The position numbers were made by a program, and so were the translations under genes. DNA of 64,000 nucleotides from Pseudarthrobacter sp. IC2-21 (GTDB lineage Bacteria > Actinomycetota > Actinomycetes > Actinomycetales > Micrococcaceae): positions 3,782,001 to 3,846,000 of the forward strand of contig NZ_CP139145.1 in the NCBI RefSeq assembly GCF_034048115.1, written 5' to 3'. Position 1 is the stretch's first letter. The number at the start of each line of letters is the position of its first letter. The notes beneath the pieces are model-generated. The model did no database searches and was not told the DNA's origin. It worked only from the letters and a program-made list of their open reading frames with translations. Positions 220 through 32,314 of this stretch are shown here, in pieces.

Positions 220-257
220 GTACCCAGCGGCCACAGCCGCTGGGTACGGCTTTGTTT
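220..257 (+). terminator. Rho-independent terminator after the cupin gene
   Basis: A perfect 12-bp stem (220-231 with 236-247) closes a CACA loop and is followed by GGCTTTGTTT. It lies 79 bp after the cupin stop and is a classical intrinsic terminator for the plus strand. Confidence 0.8.
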
Positions 258-660
258 AAAGCCTGCAGCGAGAGAAGCATGATCGTACTTCGCTTAGTTG
301 TTCCCTTGTCCCGCCCATCAGCGCCACAGTTGCCCGCCGGAAGGCCCCATCGGCACAGGCTGCATCCCCGGCCGCGGCTTCGGCTCCCGGGCGAATAGCC
401 TGCCGCCTAAGCCCTTGTGGTGGCGTCCGTCCCTGACTCGGCGGACAGGTCAGGCGCCCCGCACTGCAGGTCCGGCGTCCGGCGTTCGGGCTGCGCGTCC
501 GGCGCCCGGCCGCCGCGGAGGCGGCGAATATGCCTTAACACCGAAACGACCATGGTGGGCGATGAAGCCGCCCACCATGGTCGTCTTAAACCGTACTGCC
601 ACTCCGTGACGCGGACCGTCGTCGGGCCTTCGTCTTAGGACTTCCCAGTACGGCCTCCGC
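258..660. other. Intergenic stretch, no convincing gene
   Basis: This 400-bp gap lies between the convergent cupin fragment and betT. Short open frames exist on both strands, but they are proline/arginine-rich, lack ribosome binding sites and match no family I know. The only clear structure is the palindrome at 546-584. Confidence 0.5.
546..584. terminator. Long palindrome, probable bidirectional terminator
   Basis: Two perfect 16-bp arms (546-561 and 569-584, acgaccatggtgggcg and its complement) flank a 7-nt loop. It sits downstream of the stops of the convergent cupin fragment and betT. There is no long T-run, so it could equally be an interspersed palindromic repeat. Confidence 0.5.
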
Positions 661-7104: not shown

Positions 7105-7896
7105 CTAGCCCGCCACCGTTCCGGTGAACACGGGAGTCCGCTTTTCCTGGAAGGCGCGGAAGCCTTCGGCGTAGTCCTCGCTCTTGCACAGCCGCGCCTG
7201 CTCGGCGTTCTCCTCCGCCATGGCATCCCAGAGGCCCAGCCGCTGGTCGCGGATGTGTGCCACCAGTTCCTTGCTGGCTGTGAACGCACCGGTGGCGCCT
7301 TCGGCCACCCGGGCCACGATCTCCCGCGTGCCCGTCAGTAGCTCGTCAGCGGGCATGGCCCGGCTGAACATTCCCTGAGCCACGGCCTCTGCCCCGGAAA
7401 TCAGGTCAGCGGTGTAGATCAGATCCAGCGTCCGGTGCATGCCCAGCCGCTCCGTGAAGTACCAGTGTCCGCCCGAATCCAGCGTGGCCCCCAGCTTCGC
7501 GAACGGCGAGCCGAACTTGGCGTTCTCCGCCACGTACACCACATCGGTGGCCAGGAGCAGACCCAGGCCCACGCCCAGGCAGGCGCCCTGCGCGGCAGCG
7601 AACGTGGGCGCCGGGAACGCGCTCATCTTCTTCAGCAGCGGCTGCACCAGCCCCGCCAGGTACGCCTCGGCGTCGTCGCTTTCCGGCGTAACGTTCTGGA
7701 TGTCCCGGCCCGCACAGAAGGCGCGGCCCTCTCCCCTGAGCAACAACGCCCGCACCTCACCGCGCGCGGCGGCGGCAGCAGCGTCGTCGTACGCCTTGGA
7801 CAGTTCGCCGAGCGCCTGCTCGTCCAGGGAGTTCAGCTTGTGCGGGGCGTCCAGGACCACTTCGGCGACGTTGTTGGCGATGGAAAGGGAGATCAT
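7105..7896 (-). CDS. paaG: PaaG-type enoyl-CoA isomerase (ring-1,2-epoxyphenylacetyl-CoA isomerase)
   Basis: The 263-residue crotonase-fold enzyme probably converts the ring epoxide of phenylacetyl-CoA to the oxepin, and may also shift the double bond later in the pathway. The oxyanion-hole glycines are in AAQGACLGVGLGL. KLGATLDSGGHWYF keeps the Asp that is catalytic in PaaG in place of the hydratase Glu. The C-terminal block SEDYAEGFRAFQEKRTPVFTG is also PaaG-like. AGGAG lies five bases before ATG 7894-7896. It follows paaE by 65 bp on the same strand, so it is likely the distal gene of the paaABCDE transcript. A generic hydratase role is the alternative. Confidence 0.75.
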   Translation of the reverse strand: MISLSIANNVAEVVLDAPHKLNSLDEQALGELSKAYDDAAAAAARGEVRALLLRGEGRAFCAGRDIQNVTPESDDAEAYLAGLVQPLLKKMSAFPAPTFAAAQGACLGVGLGLLLATDVVYVAENAKFGSPFAKLGATLDSGGHWYFTERLGMHRTLDLIYTADLISGAEAVAQGMFSRAMPADELLTGTREIVARVAEGATGAFTASKELVAHIRDQRLGLWDAMAEENAEQARLCKSEDYAEGFRAFQEKRTPVFTGTVAG

Positions 7897-7961
7897 GGGG
7901 CTCCTAGGGTTGGTTCGGAATTAAGGCACGCTGATGTGAAGAGTCCCGGCGATCAACAGGA

Positions 7962-9203
7962 CTAGACGTCGAAGTCGACCATGACTTCCTTGGTGGTGGG
8001 GTGGCTCTGGCAGGTCAGCACGTAGCCCTTGTCCAGCTCGTCCTGTTCCAGCGCGTAATTCTCGTCCATGGTCACGCTGCCGGTGACCACCTTGGCGCGG
8101 CAGGTGCCGCAGACTCCCCCGGCGCACGCGAACGGCACGTCCGGACGGACCCGCAGTGCGGCGTTGAGGATGGATTCGCGGGCGTGGGTGGGGCTGGCCA
8201 CCTCGCCCTGAAGACCGTCCAGCTTGAACATAATCTTGTACGTTTCCTTGGACTCGTCCACCAGCACGGGACGGCCGGCGTGGCCCTCCGGCCGGTCCGG
8301 CTTGCCCGAGGTGAAGAGTTCAAACCTGACATTGTCCGGGCTGACCCCGCGCTCGGCCAGGGTGTCCCGGCAGAGCTGCACCAGCTCGAACGGCCCGCAC
8401 AGGAACCACTCGTCCACGTCGTCGGCGTGGATGGCGGTGCCCAGCAGCTGCTGGAGCTTTTCGGCGTCGATCCGGCCGCTGAGCAGCGGCGCGATCCGCT
8501 GTTCGCGGGACAGTACGTGGTGGATGGCCAGGCGCTGCGGGTACTTGTCCTTCAGGTCCGCGAGTTCCTCCAGGAACATCACGTCCATGGCGGCCTTGTT
8601 GGCGTAGATCAGGTCGAAACGGCTCTCCGGGTTGGCGGCCAGCAGGGTGCGGGCAATCGCGATCACCGGGGTGATGCCGGAACCCGCGGCGATGGCCACG
8701 AAGTTTGCCTCGCCGGTGGAAGCGATTTCGCCGGCCAGATCCTCCGGGTGGTTCATGGAGTTCATCCGGTTCTGCTCCACCGCTTTACCGTCGCGGCCGT
8801 GCTTGGACACAAACGCGCCCATCGGGCTCATGACGTCCAGGGTGTCCCCGGCCTTCAGCTCGGCGTTGGCCCAGGTGGAGAACAGCCCGCCAAGGTCCTT
8901 CTTGACGGCGACGCGGATTTCGCTGCTGCCGTCTTCGAAGCTGCGCGGCTCGGCGCAGATGGAGTAGCTGCGGCGGACCTCGTGCAGCTCGCCGGTCTCG
9001 TCCGGCAGCTTGGTGCGGAGGGCCACGTACTGCCCGGGCAGGTAGTCGAACTGGCCGGCGAGTTCGGCCGGAACATGGAAGGAGACTTCAATGGCGTCCT
9101 CGGTGAGCCGGCGCACCTCCTTGACGGCGAGCGTGTGGAAGGACGGACGACGGCGGCCGGTGGCCTGCGCCGATTCGGCGGCGGTCTGGCGGACAACAGG
9201 CAT
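7962..9203 (-). CDS. paaE: Phenylacetyl-CoA 1,2-epoxidase, reductase subunit
   Basis: The 413-residue NADPH:ferredoxin-type reductase passes electrons to the di-iron subunit PaaA. An N-terminal FAD-binding barrel carries RRSYSICAE (about residue 79). The NAD(P)-binding domain carries AAGSGITPVIAIA (about 173). A C-terminal plant-type 2Fe-2S domain has CAGGVCGTC plus a distant Cys in YVLTCQSHP. It is longer than Escherichia coli PaaE (356 residues), mainly because of an N-terminal extension and an insert near residues 130-165. It lies 9 bp after paaD in the paaABCDE operon. Confidence 0.92.
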   Translation of the reverse strand: MPVVRQTAAESAQATGRRRPSFHTLAVKEVRRLTEDAIEVSFHVPAELAGQFDYLPGQYVALRTKLPDETGELHEVRRSYSICAEPRSFEDGSSEIRVAVKKDLGGLFSTWANAELKAGDTLDVMSPMGAFVSKHGRDGKAVEQNRMNSMNHPEDLAGEIASTGEANFVAIAAGSGITPVIAIARTLLAANPESRFDLIYANKAAMDVMFLEELADLKDKYPQRLAIHHVLSREQRIAPLLSGRIDAEKLQQLLGTAIHADDVDEWFLCGPFELVQLCRDTLAERGVSPDNVRFELFTSGKPDRPEGHAGRPVLVDESKETYKIMFKLDGLQGEVASPTHARESILNAALRVRPDVPFACAGGVCGTCRAKVVTGSVTMDENYALEQDELDKGYVLTCQSHPTTKEVMVDFDV

Positions 9204-20699: not shown

Positions 20700-20894
20700 G
20701 ATTCCTCCTGGATGTGGGGAAATCACGGTACCAAGCAGGACCGCCGGACAGAACACCCAGCAGGAAAGTCCCCTCCGCAACAGCCGCCGAAAAATTTGAT
20801 GAAATCTTGAGCAAACCCTTCGCAACCCATGCATTTCGCGGTTCACTCTGGAGTTATCAACAAGGATGATCTGTGCGGAAAGCAGGACGGTTCA

Positions 20895-21368
20895 ATGGTG
20901 AACGAATCAGCTCTCGACGAGGTAGTAACGGTCGAAGGAGTGATCACTGATCACCACCCGATCGATTTCTACACCTTGGGGCTGGCCGGTTGTATTGACC
21001 GGCTCACGGGCCCCCTCCGCCAGCAGGGCACAGCAGTCCGCTGGGATACTCCCCACTGGGGGATTGAGATCCCGGCGGACTGCGCGTCCCTCCTGTACCA
21101 GTCGGCCCGGGAAGCGCTCAGCAACGCGTATAAATATTCAGCGGCCTCGGAGCTCACGGTCCAACTGGCTGCAGTAGGCCATGGCGTGCGGTTGATGGTG
21201 TCCGACGACGGCACCGGCTTTGACAGCCAACTCGCACTCAGCGGACGACACCACGGGTACGGGCTGCGACTGATGTCCGTGGCTGTTCACGAGGCCGGCG
21301 GCACCGTACAGGTCACCTCGACGCCGGGGCAAGGCACCACTGTCACGGTAACCCTGCCCCTGGACTGA
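20895..21368 (+). CDS. Stand-alone histidine-kinase-type ATPase domain protein
   Basis: The 157-residue protein consists almost only of a HATPase_c domain of the NarL/DesK kinase type: N box in REALSNAYKYSAASE, G1 box VSDDGTGFD, G2 box GYGLRLM, ending TVTVTLPLD. No His-phosphotransfer domain, sensor or membrane segment precedes it. ATG 20895 has AGGAC six bases upstream; earlier in-frame starts at 20829 are less well placed. It could be a truncated sensor kinase or an anti-sigma-like kinase. No response regulator is adjacent. Confidence 0.6.
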   Translation: MVNESALDEVVTVEGVITDHHPIDFYTLGLAGCIDRLTGPLRQQGTAVRWDTPHWGIEIPADCASLLYQSAREALSNAYKYSAASELTVQLAAVGHGVRLMVSDDGTGFDSQLALSGRHHGYGLRLMSVAVHEAGGTVQVTSTPGQGTTVTVTLPLD

Positions 21369-27205: not shown

Positions 27206-28318
27206 ATGCCTTCCATCCCCGAAGCCCGCCGTGCCGTTGTGATCGAGGACGACCCCGATATCCGCGGCCTTCTGGTCCGGGTCCTTGTCAAGCAGGGCTT
27301 CGAGGTCAGCCAGGCCCAGGCGGGGCTGCCCGGCGTCGAGGAAGTCCGCCGCGCCAAGCCGGATCTGGTCACCCTGGACCTGAACCTCCCGGATATGGAC
27401 GGGCTGGAGGTCTGCAAGCTCCTGCGCGAGTTCTCCGATGCCTTTATTGTGATGCTGACCGCCCGCACGGACGAACTGGACAAGCTCACGGGCCTGGACA
27501 ACGGTGCCGATGACTACATCAGCAAACCGTTCAGCCCGCGGGAGCTCCAGTCCAGGATCAACGCCCTGTTCCGCCGTCACCAGCCGCGGGCGGCCGACCC
27601 GGCCCAACACAGCGAGCTTGAACGCGCCACCGAGGTCCAGCAGAGCCTTCTGCCCAAAGAAGACGTCCGGGTGGACGGCTACGACCTCGCCGGAGCCTTC
27701 CGCCCCTCCCGCAGCGTGGGCGGGGACTTCTACGACTGGTACCGGACCCCGGACGGCCTGCACCTGACGTTCGCGGACGCCATGGGCAAAGGGATGGGGG
27801 CCGCTCTGATTGCGGCCACGGTCAGGGCTGTCATGCGGTCCACCGGGCACCGGCGCGACCTGGACGCGGCCTTCGCCTCCGCCGCCGGCACCATCGCGGC
27901 GGACCTTGACTCCTCCAACTCATTCGCCACCCTCTTCCACGCCCGGCTGGACGCCGCGTCCGGCGTCGTCAATTACATCGACGCCGGCCACGGCCTTGCC
28001 CTGCACGTCAGGGCAAACGGTGAGCTGCACCGGCTTCAGAGCGGCGGCCCGCCGGTGGGCGCCTGGGCCGGCTCGGCCTGGCCGCAGTCCGCAATCGGCC
28101 TGGCCCCCGGGGATTCCCTCGTGGTGGTCAGTGACGGCGTGCTGGATGTTTTCGACTCGGTGGAGTCCTTCACGGAGGCCGTGGGCTCGGCAACCCGGGG
28201 CCAAGCCTCCGCACAGGCCGCCAGCGATGCCATCCTGGCCCTGGCTCCCGCCGAATCAGCCGAGGACGACGTCACCGTGGTCGTGGTCCGCCGGCTGCTG
28301 GAAGGAGGGGCCGCATGA
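27206..28318 (+). CDS. Response regulator fused to SpoIIE/RsbU-type PP2C phosphatase
   Basis: The 370-residue two-domain protein has a CheY-like receiver at residues ~8-125, with acidic pair Glu-14/Asp-15/Asp-16, phospho-acceptor Asp-58 in VTLDLNLPDMDG and Lys in YISKPFSP. The PP2C-type Ser phosphatase at ~145-368 has metal-binding segments VGGDFYDW, FADAMGKGMGAAL, VVSDGVLDVF and EDDVTVVVVR. In partner-switching systems such a protein dephosphorylates a STAS antagonist when the receiver is phosphorylated. Here the antagonist (30275) and an RsbW-like protein (30600) are in the same operon, with a glycosyltransferase gene between them. Its stop overlaps the next start (ATGA). The convergent GAF histidine kinase at 31076 is a plausible phosphodonor. 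Confidence 0.85.
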   Translation: MPSIPEARRAVVIEDDPDIRGLLVRVLVKQGFEVSQAQAGLPGVEEVRRAKPDLVTLDLNLPDMDGLEVCKLLREFSDAFIVMLTARTDELDKLTGLDNGADDYISKPFSPRELQSRINALFRRHQPRAADPAQHSELERATEVQQSLLPKEDVRVDGYDLAGAFRPSRSVGGDFYDWYRTPDGLHLTFADAMGKGMGAALIAATVRAVMRSTGHRRDLDAAFASAAGTIAADLDSSNSFATLFHARLDAASGVVNYIDAGHGLALHVRANGELHRLQSGGPPVGAWAGSAWPQSAIGLAPGDSLVVVSDGVLDVFDSVESFTEAVGSATRGQASAQAASDAILALAPAESAEDDVTVVVVRRLLEGGAA

Positions 28319-30285
28319 CCCGCTTCTGGACCCGCCTGGTGGTTGTCCTCACCGTCATCTTCGGCCTGAACTACGTCGCCTGGCGCTGGGCCGCGTCGCT
28401 CAACTGGGACGCGTGGTGGATCGCCGTGCCCCTGGTGGTGGCCGAGACGTACAGCCTGATCGACGTGATGCTCTTCGGCATGACCGTATGGAAACTCAAG
28501 GTCCGCAAGGAAGCCCCGGCGCCGCCGCAGGATGCCACGGTGGACGTCTTCATCACCACCTACAACGAAGACCTGGACATGGTGATGACCACCGCCCTGG
28601 CCGCCCAGAAGATCCGGCACCCGCACAGCACCTGGATCCTCGACGACGGCGCCCGGCCCGAACTGAAAGCCCTCGCCGAAGAGCACGGGCTCGGGTACGT
28701 GACCCGCAGCGTGGACTGGACCGCCAATGTGCCGCGCCACGCCAAGGCCGGCAACCTGAACAACGCCCTGATGGTCACCCACGGCGAATTCCTGCTCATC
28801 CTGGACGCGGACCAGATCCCGGAGCCGGACATCCTGGAAAAGACCCTGGGCTACTTCAACAACCGCCGGGTCGCCCTCGTCCAGACCCCGCAGTACTTCA
28901 GCAACGTCCCCGCGGACGATCCCCTCGGCAGCCAGGCTCCCCTGTTCTACGGGCCCATCCAGCAGGGCAAGGACGGCTGGAACGCCGCATTCTTCTGCGG
29001 CTCCAATGCCATCCTGCGCCGTGAAGCCCTCATGCAGCTGGGCCTGGTGGGTTACGTCAAGGAAACCGAGAAGAGCATCCGCCGGGCCCTTACGGCCTCC
29101 CGTTCGGCGATCCGGCAGGCAAGGAAATCCGCCGACGTCGGTACTCCCCTGGTCTCCGAGGTGCTGGATGAGGTGGAGGCTGCCACCCTGGAGGCCCAGG
29201 AGCAGCTGGCCGCCGGCGAACCGTTGGGTGAAATCACCTACCGGGTCCGCCGCCGGGTTGACGCCGCCGTGCAGACCCTGGTCATGGCGGACATGTCCGC
29301 CCTGCAGGCGGACCTCGAGGAGATCGCCGCGATGGAACTGGCTCACGTGGGCGAGGCCGGCGTCCCGGTGGTGGCAGAGGACGCCGTGCAGCGCATGTCC
29401 GCCCGCGACTGGTCTCCGCTGGGCGCACTGGAATCAGTCCAGGCCGTCCTGGATGCACTGAACGTGGAACGGAACGACGAAGCCCAGCCGGTGATGCCGC
29501 TGGCCACCATCTCGGTCACCGAGGACATGGCCACCGCCATGCGCATGCACGCCATGGGATGGGAGAGCGTCTACCACCACGAGATCCTCGCGTACGGCCT
29601 CGCGCCCGAGGACATCGCCACCATGCTCACGCAGCGGCTGCGCTGGGCGCAGGGCACCATCCAGGTGCTGCTCCGCGAGAACCCGCTGGTCCAGAAGGGC
29701 CTGAAGATCGGCCAGCGGCTGATGTACTTCGCCACCATGTGGACCTACCTGAGCGGGTACGCGGCGGTCATCTACTTCGCCGCCCCCATCATCTACCTGC
29801 TGCTGGGCATCCTGCCCGTCACCAGCCTCAGCTGGGACTTCTTCCTGCGGTTCATCCCGTTCATGGTGGCCAACCAGCTCCTGTTCGCGGTGGCCGGCCG
29901 CGGGATTCCCACCTGGCGCGGCCAGCAGTACAGCCTGGCGCTGTTCCCCACCTGGATCAAGGCGTGCACGACGGCGGCCCGCAACGTCTGGTTCGGCCGT
30001 CCCCTGGGGTTCGCGGTAACACCGAAATCCCGCCAGACCGGCGGTCCCAGCTGGAGCCTGATCCGGCCCCAGATCATTGTGGCCGCGCTGCTGGCCGTGG
30101 CCGCCGTCGTCGGACTTATCCGCCTGGCCACAGGGCTGGCCGAGCCCCTTGGCACCCTGGTGAACGTGGCCTGGGTTATTTTTGACCTGGTGGTCATGAG
30201 CATCCTGGTTCGGGCTGTTTTGTACAAAGGCTACGAACCCGCCGGGGACGTTGATGCTTTAGAGAGGAAAACCGATGGAGTTTAG
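28315..30285 (+). CDS. BcsA-like processive glycosyltransferase (GT2) with large internal insertion
   Basis: The 656-residue membrane glycosyltransferase resembles cellulose synthase catalytic subunits. Two N-terminal membrane helices precede a GT2 domain with Asp-110/Asp-111 (ILDDGA), Asp-164-x-Asp-166 (LDADQIP), Thr-Glu-Asp at 402-404 (SVTEDMATAMRMH) and Gln-440/Arg-443/Trp-444 (QRLRW). At least four C-terminal helices complete the transport channel. Between CGSNAILRREAL (228-239) and the TED motif lies an insertion of about 140-150 residues. It is predicted-helical, charged and Ala-rich, and absent from ordinary BcsA. There is no C-terminal PilZ c-di-GMP domain. It overlaps the phosphatase gene upstream and the STAS gene downstream, so it is part of a partner-switching operon. 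The product is likely an extracellular polysaccharide; whether cellulose is not known. Confidence 0.8.
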   Translation: MTRFWTRLVVVLTVIFGLNYVAWRWAASLNWDAWWIAVPLVVAETYSLIDVMLFGMTVWKLKVRKEAPAPPQDATVDVFITTYNEDLDMVMTTALAAQKIRHPHSTWILDDGARPELKALAEEHGLGYVTRSVDWTANVPRHAKAGNLNNALMVTHGEFLLILDADQIPEPDILEKTLGYFNNRRVALVQTPQYFSNVPADDPLGSQAPLFYGPIQQGKDGWNAAFFCGSNAILRREALMQLGLVGYVKETEKSIRRALTASRSAIRQARKSADVGTPLVSEVLDEVEAATLEAQEQLAAGEPLGEITYRVRRRVDAAVQTLVMADMSALQADLEEIAAMELAHVGEAGVPVVAEDAVQRMSARDWSPLGALESVQAVLDALNVERNDEAQPVMPLATISVTEDMATAMRMHAMGWESVYHHEILAYGLAPEDIATMLTQRLRWAQGTIQVLLRENPLVQKGLKIGQRLMYFATMWTYLSGYAAVIYFAAPIIYLLLGILPVTSLSWDFFLRFIPFMVANQLLFAVAGRGIPTWRGQQYSLALFPTWIKACTTAARNVWFGRPLGFAVTPKSRQTGGPSWSLIRPQIIVAALLAVAAVVGLIRLATGLAEPLGTLVNVAWVIFDLVVMSILVRAVLYKGYEPAGDVDALERKTDGV

Positions 30286-30607
30286 CTACGAGGTCAAGGA
30301 TTCATACGCCGAGGTCAAGGCGGACGGCAGGCTGAACATGGTCTCCGCGCCCAAGCTGCGCGAGTTCGTAACCGATGTGATCGCCGGCGGATCGTCGCGG
30401 ATCGTGGTGAACCTGGAGAACACCGCGTTCATGGATTCCTCCGGTCTGGGCGCGCTGATCGGCTGCCTCAAGGCCGCGCGCCAGGCCGGTGGAGACCTCC
30501 GCATTGCGGCCGTCCAGCCGCAGGTGAAGATGGTGCTGGAGCTGACCAGCATGGACCGAGTCCTGAACGCTTACGCCACCGCCGAGGATGCGTTCAGCAA
30601 TGACTGA
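30275..30607 (+). CDS. STAS-domain antagonist (RsbV-like)
   Basis: The 110-residue single STAS domain carries the phosphorylatable Ser in NTAFMDSSGLGALIGCLKA, the standard site of anti-sigma-factor antagonists. Its start overlaps the end of the glycosyltransferase gene by 11 bases, with GAGG upstream, so it is translated from the same message. It should switch partners according to phosphorylation by the next gene product and dephosphorylation by the PP2C protein at 27206. Confidence 0.88.
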   Translation: MEFSYEVKDSYAEVKADGRLNMVSAPKLREFVTDVIAGGSSRIVVNLENTAFMDSSGLGALIGCLKAARQAGGDLRIAAVQPQVKMVLELTSMDRVLNAYATAEDAFSND

Positions 30608-31025
30608 TGTGCTGGCAGAGCGCAGCTTCCGCGGGCTCGCAGAGGCGGAGGCCGTCGAGGCCGTCCACGATGAACTGGACGCCCTGTGGAACGACGCACC
30701 CTTCGTGGAGGCCATGGACCAGATGACGTTCACCACCGCCGTCATCGAATCGGCCTCCAACATCGTCCAGCATGCCCTGCCGGCCAGGGTTCAGCAGCCT
30801 GTGGAACTGGGAGTGGACATCAGCGTCCGGCCCACGCTCCTGCGGGCCAGGGTCAGCGCGTTCCACGCCAAGCCCCCGTTCGGTCCGATGGAGCCCGGGA
30901 CCCCGGATCAAGAGTCCGAGTCAGGCCGCGGGTTGGCGCTCATCGAGGCGCTGGTCACCACCGTGACCTTCGAACGGCAGGACGGCACCAACACCTGGAT
31001 CCTGTCCAAGTCGCAGCAGGTTTAG
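30600..31025 (+). CDS. RsbW-like ATPase/Ser kinase with altered G1 box
   Basis: The 141-residue HATPase domain is of the anti-sigma kinase type. The N box is visible in IESASNIVQHAL and the G2-like GRGLALIEAL near the end. Where homologues have a D-x-G-P-x-F-D-P G1 box, this protein reads FHAKPPFGP, so the adenine-contacting Asp is missing. It may bind ATP poorly or act only as a partner-binding scaffold. The start at ATG 30600 overlaps the STAS stop by eight bases; an in-frame ATG at 30588 is an alternative. No sigma factor gene is nearby, so the target may be the glycosyltransferase (inference). Confidence 0.72.
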   Translation: MTDVLAERSFRGLAEAEAVEAVHDELDALWNDAPFVEAMDQMTFTTAVIESASNIVQHALPARVQQPVELGVDISVRPTLLRARVSAFHAKPPFGPMEPGTPDQESESGRGLALIEALVTTVTFERQDGTNTWILSKSQQV

Positions 31026-31075: not shown

Positions 31076-32314
31076 CTACTGGTCCCAGCGGAACAGCACC
31101 GAGATGCTTGCGCCGCCTCCCGGTGAGTCCCGGATTTCCAGTTCCCCGCCGTGGGCCTGCGCGATGCGCCGGCACGTGGCAAGGCCCAGGCCGGTGCCCG
31201 GTCCGTCCCCGGCCCGGTTCAGCCTGACCAGGGGCTCCATGGCACGTTTGCGGTCCGCCGGGCTGATTCCCACGCCGTTGTCCGCCACGGTGAGGGCCAT
31301 TCCCTGTTCGCCGGGCGCGGCCCCCACGGTCACTTTCAGCTCGCGCTCGGTGCTCCTGTAATTCAGTGCGTTGGCCAGCAGGTTCTGGAGCAGCAATCGC
31401 AGCTGGACGGGGTCTGCGTACAGTTCCGCGTCATCGCAGAAGATACCGCTGGAGGGCCCAAGGTCCACCCCCAGATCGTGGGCAGCCTCGGCGGTGACCG
31501 CCAGCAGCGAGAGCCGCTCCCGGTGCAGGGTGCCGTCCACCCGGGAATACTCCAGCACATCCTCGAGCGTCTTCAGCATGCGCCGCCCGCCACCTCCAAT
31601 GAACTGCAGGTACTCCACGGCGGGATGGCCCGGCGGGATGTCCGGATCGTCCTCGGCGAGCTCAATGTAGCCCAGCATGGTGGTGAGCGGGATGCGGAGG
31701 TCGTGGCTGACGCGGCCGGCGAATTCCCCCAGCATGGCGTTGCTGCGTTCCAGTTCGGCCAGCGCCTCGCTCAACTGCAAGGTCCGGTGCTGAAGCTCCA
31801 GGACCTCCACCACCTGGTGGGCCAGCACCTCCAGCATCCCGATCTGCTCCGCGGTGGGACTGGCCGGCCCGTCAGAGAAGATGCAGAGCGATCCCAGCAC
31901 AAAGCCGGAAAGCGTCTTCAGCGGCACGGAGGCGTAAAAACGTACGGCGGCGATTTCGCCGGTGACAAACGGGTTGTCTGCAAACCTCAGGTCCCGGGAG
32001 GCGTCCGGCACCACGGTCGTCTTTCCGGTCAGGAAAACCTTGGCGCACATCGAGTCTTCCCTCGAACACACGCCGGGGTCCACGCCCCAGGCCGCGATCT
32101 GCACCTGCTGGTCCTCGGTAATGATATTGACCACACTGAACGGCACGGCACACAGCCGGGCAGCGAGGCGGACCAGGTTGGTGAGCGCGCCTCCGGCCTC
32201 CGCTTCGGGCAGGGCCGGCGGCTCCCCGGCGGCGGTGGGGGCAAGCCCGTAGCTCCTGATCGCGGTGGCCCGGTCCGACTCCGCGGCCGTCCAGCCAAAC
32301 GTGACGGTATCCAT
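31076..32314 (-). CDS. GAF-domain sensor histidine kinase
   Basis: The 412-residue soluble kinase has a GAF sensor domain at about residues 40-185 (VPFSVVNIITEDQQVQIAAWG, REDSMCAKVFLTGKTTVVPD), a short coiled coil, and HisKA with the phospho-His in GRVSHDLRIPLTTMLGYIEL. The HATPase has LLQNLLANALNY, VADNGVGI and GTGLGLATCRRI. No membrane segment. The start at ATG 32312-32314 has GAGGGGG upstream; a longer frame to 32710 is a read-through. It is convergent with the partner-switching operon and is the nearest kinase to that operon's receiver domain. Confidence 0.85.
   Translation of the reverse strand: MDTVTFGWTAAESDRATAIRSYGLAPTAAGEPPALPEAEAGGALTNLVRLAARLCAVPFSVVNIITEDQQVQIAAWGVDPGVCSREDSMCAKVFLTGKTTVVPDASRDLRFADNPFVTGEIAAVRFYASVPLKTLSGFVLGSLCIFSDGPASPTAEQIGMLEVLAHQVVEVLELQHRTLQLSEALAELERSNAMLGEFAGRVSHDLRIPLTTMLGYIELAEDDPDIPPGHPAVEYLQFIGGGGRRMLKTLEDVLEYSRVDGTLHRERLSLLAVTAEAAHDLGVDLGPSSGIFCDDAELYADPVQLRLLLQNLLANALNYRSTERELKVTVGAAPGEQGMALTVADNGVGISPADRKRAMEPLVRLNRAGDGPGTGLGLATCRRIAQAHGGELEIRDSPGGGASISVLFRWDQ

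Follow-up and report, generated by a model that had tools for sequence, protein, structure and literature searches.

Operon layout and gene identities

The window analyzed here is a 64,000-nt stretch of contig NZ_CP139145.1 of Pseudarthrobacter sp. IC2-21 (positions 3,782,001 to 3,846,000). It contains four plus-strand genes (27206–31025), which, according to the open reading frame (ORF) calls, overlap successively by 4, 11 and 8 nt. The ORFs and Pfam searches bore out the gene identities proposed in the first-pass annotation, i.e. (in this order) a receiver (REC)-PP2C phosphatase, a processive glycosyltransferase of the GT2 type resembling the cellulose synthase BcsA, a STAS protein and an RsbW-like ATPase. 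The subject of this work is the putative control of the synthase by the STAS protein. A PP2C phosphatase, a STAS antagonist and a HATPase_c_2 protein are encoded together at this locus, which is the composition of an RsbU/RsbV/RsbW-type module.

The first gene (27206–28318) encodes a 370-aa RsbU/SpoIIE-type phosphatase with a receiver domain (Pfam: Response_reg, 1e-27; SpoIIE, 8.5e-32), in which D58 is, by reading, the predicted phosphoacceptor. The stretches GGDFYD, ADAMGKG, SDGVLD and EDDVT were read directly in its sequence, and are PP2C motifs. The third gene (30275–30607) encodes a stand-alone, SpoIIAA/RsbV-like STAS protein of 110 aa (STAS, 5.2e-19), no other short frame of the genome giving a STAS match. 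Its predicted phosphoacceptor, aligned with that of SpoIIAA, is Ser55 (30437–30439), the first serine of the MDSSG motif, and DSS is kept at this site in all 127 STAS rows from operons. The fourth gene (30600–31025; HATPase_c_2, 7.1e-11) has an alternative start at 30588, although the start at 30600 fits the homologue alignment better. Within the 126 aligned ATPase rows, the E and N of the N-box are invariant and GRG is present in 124–125. The G1-box Asp of GHKL kinases binds adenine. In the homologue alignment the window protein has Ala (30858–30860) for this usual Asp, a substitution that had escaped the first-pass annotation, and the rows as a whole have Ala (73), Asp (33), Glu (16), His (3) or Gly (1).

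The second gene (28315–30285) encodes the 656-aa synthase (Cellulose_synt, 2.8e-22, and GT2 families in Pfam). Both the GT2 catalytic motifs and the BcsA fold are present: the D-A-D motif (residues 164–166; 28804–28812), whose D164 and D166 are invariant in 60 aligned sequences, the TED motif (residues 402–404; 29518–29526), invariant in the same alignment, the QxxRW motif, here QRLRW (residues 440–444; 29632–29646), and the gating-loop motif FxVTxK, here FAVTPK (residues 566–571; 30010–30027), followed by just 85 residues. BcsA ranked first in a sequence search of the PDB as well as in a Foldseek search with the AlphaFold2 (AF2) model (pLDDT 80.9), while the TIGR03030 score was 354 against a cut-off of 699. 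The window enzyme thus shares with BcsA (PDB 4hg6, 4p00 and 9b8v) the core, the DxD/TED/QxxRW motifs, the FxVTxK gating loop and the fold, but differs from it in having no PilZ domain and approximately 150 extra residues before TED. The absence of PilZ, already noted in the first-pass annotation, was confirmed for the window GT2 (Pfam, E ≤ 0.1), and a PilZ match was found in 0/60 members of the insert-class alignment, window included (Pfam, E ≤ 0.01).

Conservation of the operon, the insert and the kinase-less relatives

A set of 135 loci was assembled from the best 80 of 464 species-genome matches and 55 loci from genome searches, and was scored with home-made hidden Markov models (HMMs). Some genomes are present twice, and some loci are repeats (the window is L103; L105 = L045, L111 = L094 and L133 = L126). 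The best 80 of the 464 matches all carry titles that we take to be those of Micrococcales genera or of the family. Matches at E ≤ 1e-40 were found in 25/396 genomes of the order (11/109 genera) and in 26/394 genomes of the class, and the phylum-level search gave matches in 2/396 genomes at E ≤ 1e-60. Twenty-two of the 25 order genomes have a full-length orthologue, the others having a distant GT2 (G443) or a GT2 of a sister type described below (G616 and G658).

After exclusion of six distant GT2s, 129 loci (a partly redundant set) remained, and the STAS gene lies directly 3' of the GT2 gene in 121 of them. The complete set of four is found in 111, and 105 have the exact order on one strand. 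This exact order was seen in eight family-level groups within the class (f1, f4, f6, f8, f76, f79, f81 and f90), so that the arrangement, for which conservation beyond close relatives had been in question, extends well past them. Because the order recurs so far afield, it is not a product of chance. The exceptions to the STAS-after-GT2 arrangement are two loci that end at a contig end (L053 and L146), three that are rearranged, yet have STAS and ATPase within ~3.3 kb (L095, L097 and L099), two with no STAS in the stretch (L088 and L129) and one that is broken (L152). In the last case (L152/L177, genome G1062) both the GT2 and the PP2C genes are broken and the genome is small, i.e. this is a decaying operon. 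An apparent PP2C-GT2 fusion in L104 was rejected, as the 1078-aa ORF is a read-through of a GC-rich frame, the PP2C and the GT2 each being read in a frame of its own.

Among the 22 order genomes with the operon-type GT2, all four genes are nearby in 20. Within the operon it is the phosphatase that varies: in the domain test of 127 PP2C frames, 74 carry a REC domain, 41 a GAF domain and 12 neither. The convergent GAF-HisKA-HATPase histidine kinase that the first-pass annotation had placed near 31076 is a real gene according to Pfam (31079–~32242, minus strand) and is a candidate input to the receiver; a GAF-type histidine kinase core was found in the flank of 34/135 loci, many of the flanks being short. 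The window also encodes, at 20829–21368 (plus strand), a 179-aa HATPase-only protein that resembles the C-terminus of NarX/UhpB-type kinases and has no recognised phosphoacceptor domain.

The extra residues of the synthase form a 151-residue insert (residues 244–394; 29044–29496) between the FFCGSN strand and TED. It is modelled as helices, for which AF2 gives residues 236–272, 278–299, 304–341, 355–362 and 368–382, in a long run leading into the TED helix. Plant CesA enzymes likewise have an additional region between DxD and TED. None of 6/6 distant GT2s (L128 and L153–L157; ~40% identical) has a residue at window positions 244–394. PilZ exceeds the Pfam cut-off on two of these six distant GT2s (L164 and L166), falls just below it on L163 and is absent from three. 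It therefore looks as though one core can bear either the insert or PilZ as its control module, with 3/6 distant GT2s having neither. Judged by sequence comparison, the insert and the STAS gene go together. The CGSN-to-TED spacing is 168–188 residues in 122 operon-class loci and 132–139 in six rows in which GT2 is accompanied by STAS only. A part of the insert, of ~42 residues (~324–365; 29284–29409), is a gap in at least 23/30 STAS-only or fusion synthases. Across 53 loci, insert divergence tracks that of STAS beyond the rest of GT2 (partial r 0.48, compared with 0.44 for the ATPase and 0.23 for PP2C); this distance analysis is weak evidence, as all three insert pairs are significant against permutation.

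The STAS-only synthases belong to a sister type (~50% identical, with a shorter insert), which was identified in five genomes (G470, G592, G713, G616 and G658), in each case immediately followed by a STAS gene. In 5/5 of these genomes the flanks (≤6 kb) gave no HMM match to the ATPase or to PP2C (E ≤ 0.01), the contig of G658 ending early. In G470, G592 and G713 the full operon is also present elsewhere in the genome. At the phosphoserine position, the sister-type STAS has A or P in 9/9 rows from 5/5 genomes. Moreover, of 120 relatives listed by a protein search with one sister-type GT2, 46 (741–824 aa) have a C-terminal STAS in the same chain according to a local STAS HMM, which Pfam confirmed in 45/46, and at the phosphosite 39 of these fusions have P and 7 have S. 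A tree of 80 sequences separates the operon class (44/44, support 0.99) from the sister/fusion class (30/30, support 1.0), each being a clade. Fusions were absent from the genome search of 394 class genomes, where the 22 genomes with matches all have operon-type relatives. We read the sister clade and the fusions as the strongest evidence in this study: it is STAS that stays beside the synthase and is incorporated into it. The kinase and the phosphatase can be missing, and the serine is then usually lost as well.

Candidate targets of the STAS protein

From these comparisons, it seems probable that the regulatory partner of the BcsA-like GT2 is STAS directly, rather than a sigma factor, and that the operon adds phospho-control. 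A two-component signal (GAF-sensed in other genomes) would cause the REC-PP2C protein to dephosphorylate STAS and thereby turn synthesis on. Unphosphorylated STAS would dock on the synthase, probably on its insert, permitting or activating polymerisation, and the RsbW-like protein would phosphorylate Ser55 of STAS, or merely sequester STAS, thereby uncoupling it from the synthase. The insert and STAS module would thus replace the PilZ/cyclic di-GMP (c-di-GMP) module on a common cellulose-synthase-like core, and insert residues 324–365 are the first candidate for what makes the binding phosphorylation- or ATPase-dependent. Activation is the more plausible sign of the effect, since an inhibitor that is fused for good and in most cases cannot be phosphorylated would mean an always-off enzyme, which is unlikely to be kept. 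The first-pass proposal that the phosphorylation state of STAS directly switches the synthase is supported in part: the direct link is favoured by the GT2::STAS fusions, the kinase-less pairs and the operon genomes without SigB-type sigma factors and GGDEF proteins (see below), and the phosphorylation-driven part is a prediction.

Several observations weigh against direct control by STAS. The co-occurrence of insert and STAS is essentially a matter of one clade versus an outgroup, so that few independent events are involved, and G636 holds an extra GT2 that has the insert and no STAS nearby (L161/L162; the genome has two GT2 copies, one of which belongs to a full operon that has two PP2C genes in tandem). 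The operon is patchy, three of the nine same-genus genomes listed lacking it (G008, G540 and G554). G695 has no PP2C match in 16 kb, and G777 (L234, G777:C22:5000-22000) has GT2 and a STAS with DSS, without an ATPase or PP2C match in 17 kb; kinase loss is therefore not always followed by serine loss. Among the fusions, 7/46 keep Ser at the phosphosite. The 13 fusions included in the tree do not form one clade, with low support, and the AF2 model of fusion P0173 is poor (pLDDT 67.5, pTM 0.52), its linker being of low confidence, and is uninformative on docking. Finally, the kinase activity of the window-clade ATPase is doubtful, because its G1 Asp is replaced by Ala. Since the phosphosite Ser55 and PP2C are kept despite this change, either ATP binding tolerates it or the ATPase merely binds.

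PP2C/STAS/RsbW-type modules can act on a sigma factor, and the RsbW-like ATPase might hold an unlinked one, which STAS and PP2C would free, with the GT2 gene being co-transcribed or itself a target. The statement of the first-pass annotation that no sigma gene is present holds for the window (Sigma70_r2 search of the genome) and fails genome-wide, as one SigB/F/G-type sigma gene lies unlinked at 0.42 Mb of the 4.27-Mb contig, the window being at 3.78–3.85 Mb. Its TIGR02980 match (E 1.4e-61, 208 bits; 209.9 bits in the comparison of order genomes) is under the curated model cut-off of 234, as are all matches in that comparison. No RsbW-like, STAS or PP2C match was found within ~7 kb of this gene, an orphan (L235, G000:C1:413000-429000, gene at ~7124–8242) whose product has a long N-terminal extension. 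Beyond the orphan sigma itself, a sigma target is favoured by the operon holding the sole short-frame STAS and, besides the NarX-like fragment, the sole short HATPase_c_2 protein over the cut-off. Two further counts run counter to direct control in the same way: within the family, such sigma factors are present in 8/10 genomes with the operon vs 6/20 without it (Fisher p 0.019), and SigB/F-type sigmas occur in 11/12 genomes tested from other orders. On the other side, a SigB/F/G-type sigma (E < 1e-40) is present in only 9/22 order genomes with the operon-type GT2. In the other 13/22 the best TIGR02980 match (129.8–133.4 bits) is at the level of the primary sigma of the source genome, G000 (130.0), and G939 has no SigB/F-type match to this model. 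Likewise, 12/20 order genomes with all four genes nearby lack a SigB/F-type match, and across the order sample there is no association (9/22 with the operon vs 6/20 family genomes without it, Fisher p 0.53). STAS is, moreover, fused to or paired with GT2 where the kinase is absent. No sigma target can hold for the operon in general; in the source genome one may still apply, and taken as an explanation of the system it is, in our estimation, unlikely.

Two other explanations retain the synthase as the final target. In the manner of Bgr of Sinorhizobium meliloti or of HsbA, STAS could switch a diguanylate cyclase, and c-di-GMP would then activate the synthase. Partner switching of diguanylate cyclases has been published for BgrV-BgrR and HsbA-HsbD; GGDEF proteins are present in 18/22 order genomes with the operon-type GT2, and at least five genomes (G1058, G605, G687, G636 and G410) have a GGDEF gene 7–20 kb from GT2, which is one more point to be set against direct action of STAS. 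The synthase, however, has no PilZ, and the four GGDEF matches of the source genome are all far from the window. A switch via a diguanylate cyclase cannot hold in four of the 22 genomes (G473, G482, G581 and G610; 99–100% complete), because these have no GGDEF match; they are also without a SigB/F-type sigma, yet have all four operon genes. We therefore attach hardly any weight to this explanation. Alternatively, the helical insert could mimic a sigma factor, such that the RsbW-like ATPase binds and silences the synthase and STAS just releases it. This would fit with the ~42 operon-class insert residues (324–365) missing from most kinase-less synthases and with the ATPase diverging in step with the insert (the partial r of 0.44 given above). 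It is nevertheless quite improbable, as the sister clade retains insert and STAS without a nearby ATPase homologue, and fuses STAS.

Polymer context, known systems and significance

Proteins with GH26-like or GH26-OpgC domains are encoded near GT2 in 23/100 loci, the GT2 being a distant one in a single case (L165). GH26 matches were found in 16/22 order genomes with the operon-type GT2 vs 1/20 family genomes without it (Fisher 6e-6) and, within the family, in 10/10 genomes with the operon vs 1/20 without it, kinship being ignored in both comparisons. There is no match in G939, one each in G616 and G658, and two, unlinked, in the source genome; most GH26 matches are partial (22–54 bits). A large protein is encoded beside GT2 in L088 (429–2921), L095 (3253–5805) and L099 (3290–5761), with an OpgC_C acyltransferase domain in L088 and L095 and a weak GH26-like domain in L088. 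The OpgC_C/GH26-like neighbours suggest a modified glycan. The GH26 co-occurrence could indicate a glycan of mannan type or mixed linkage rather than cellulose, and our guess for the polymer is a beta-mannan or else a mixed-linkage glucan.

The operon shares its three regulatory families with the RsbU-RsbV-RsbW and SpoIIE-SpoIIAA-SpoIIAB switches of Bacillus subtilis, including the DSSG of STAS aligned with SpoIIAA and the N-box of the ATPase. It differs from them in that there is no sigma gene, the fourth gene encodes a membrane glycosyltransferase and the G1 Asp is missing from the clade's ATPase. There is a functional likeness to SypA of Vibrio fischeri, a STAS protein active in the unphosphorylated form for Syp polysaccharide, whose target is given as unknown in the consulted parts of the reports (PMC4517449, PMC10120452 and PMC11112999). 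According to these parts, it is likewise a phosphoserine-controlled STAS that promotes a polysaccharide biofilm, and it is not believed to act as an antagonist of an anti-sigma factor. The Syp system has a single dual kinase/phosphatase, SypE, unlike the separate ATPase and PP2C of the operon, and the same portions of the three reports describe no link to a BcsA-like gene. In Sinorhizobium meliloti, the Bgr proteins (PP2C, kinase and STAS) control beta-glucan synthesis (Baena 2019; PMC7647112 and PMC8457831), acting, as far as these accounts extend, via the diguanylate cyclase BgrR and c-di-GMP, unlike the proposed direct control. The Anabaena protein all4160 is, by its description in part of PMC8256260, a glycosyltransferase with an N-terminal STAS; it resembles the fusions reported here by that description only and differs from them in the position of STAS. 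A literature search covering titles and abstract openings, with subscription papers outside its scope, revealed no cellulose-type synthase controlled by, or fused to, a STAS protein.

In textbooks, the cellulose-type synthases of bacteria are enzymes governed by c-di-GMP. The chances seem about even that Actinomycetes possess a synthase family in which PilZ/c-di-GMP has been swapped for an insert-docking STAS that RsbW-type phosphorylation detaches, and a sister clade in which STAS is fixed, and often fused. If direct control by STAS is true, this would be, as far as the literature search shows, the first processive polysaccharide synthase under a direct phospho-switch. A sister lineage governed by protein phosphorylation would then demonstrate that one and the same catalytic core can take a different control module. 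The natural GT2::STAS fusions would be ready-made fixed-partner versions of such an enzyme. The system would also provide a testable target and model for SypA-like STAS proteins, the regulation by SypA being placed 'at an unknown level' in a 2024 report (PMC11112999).

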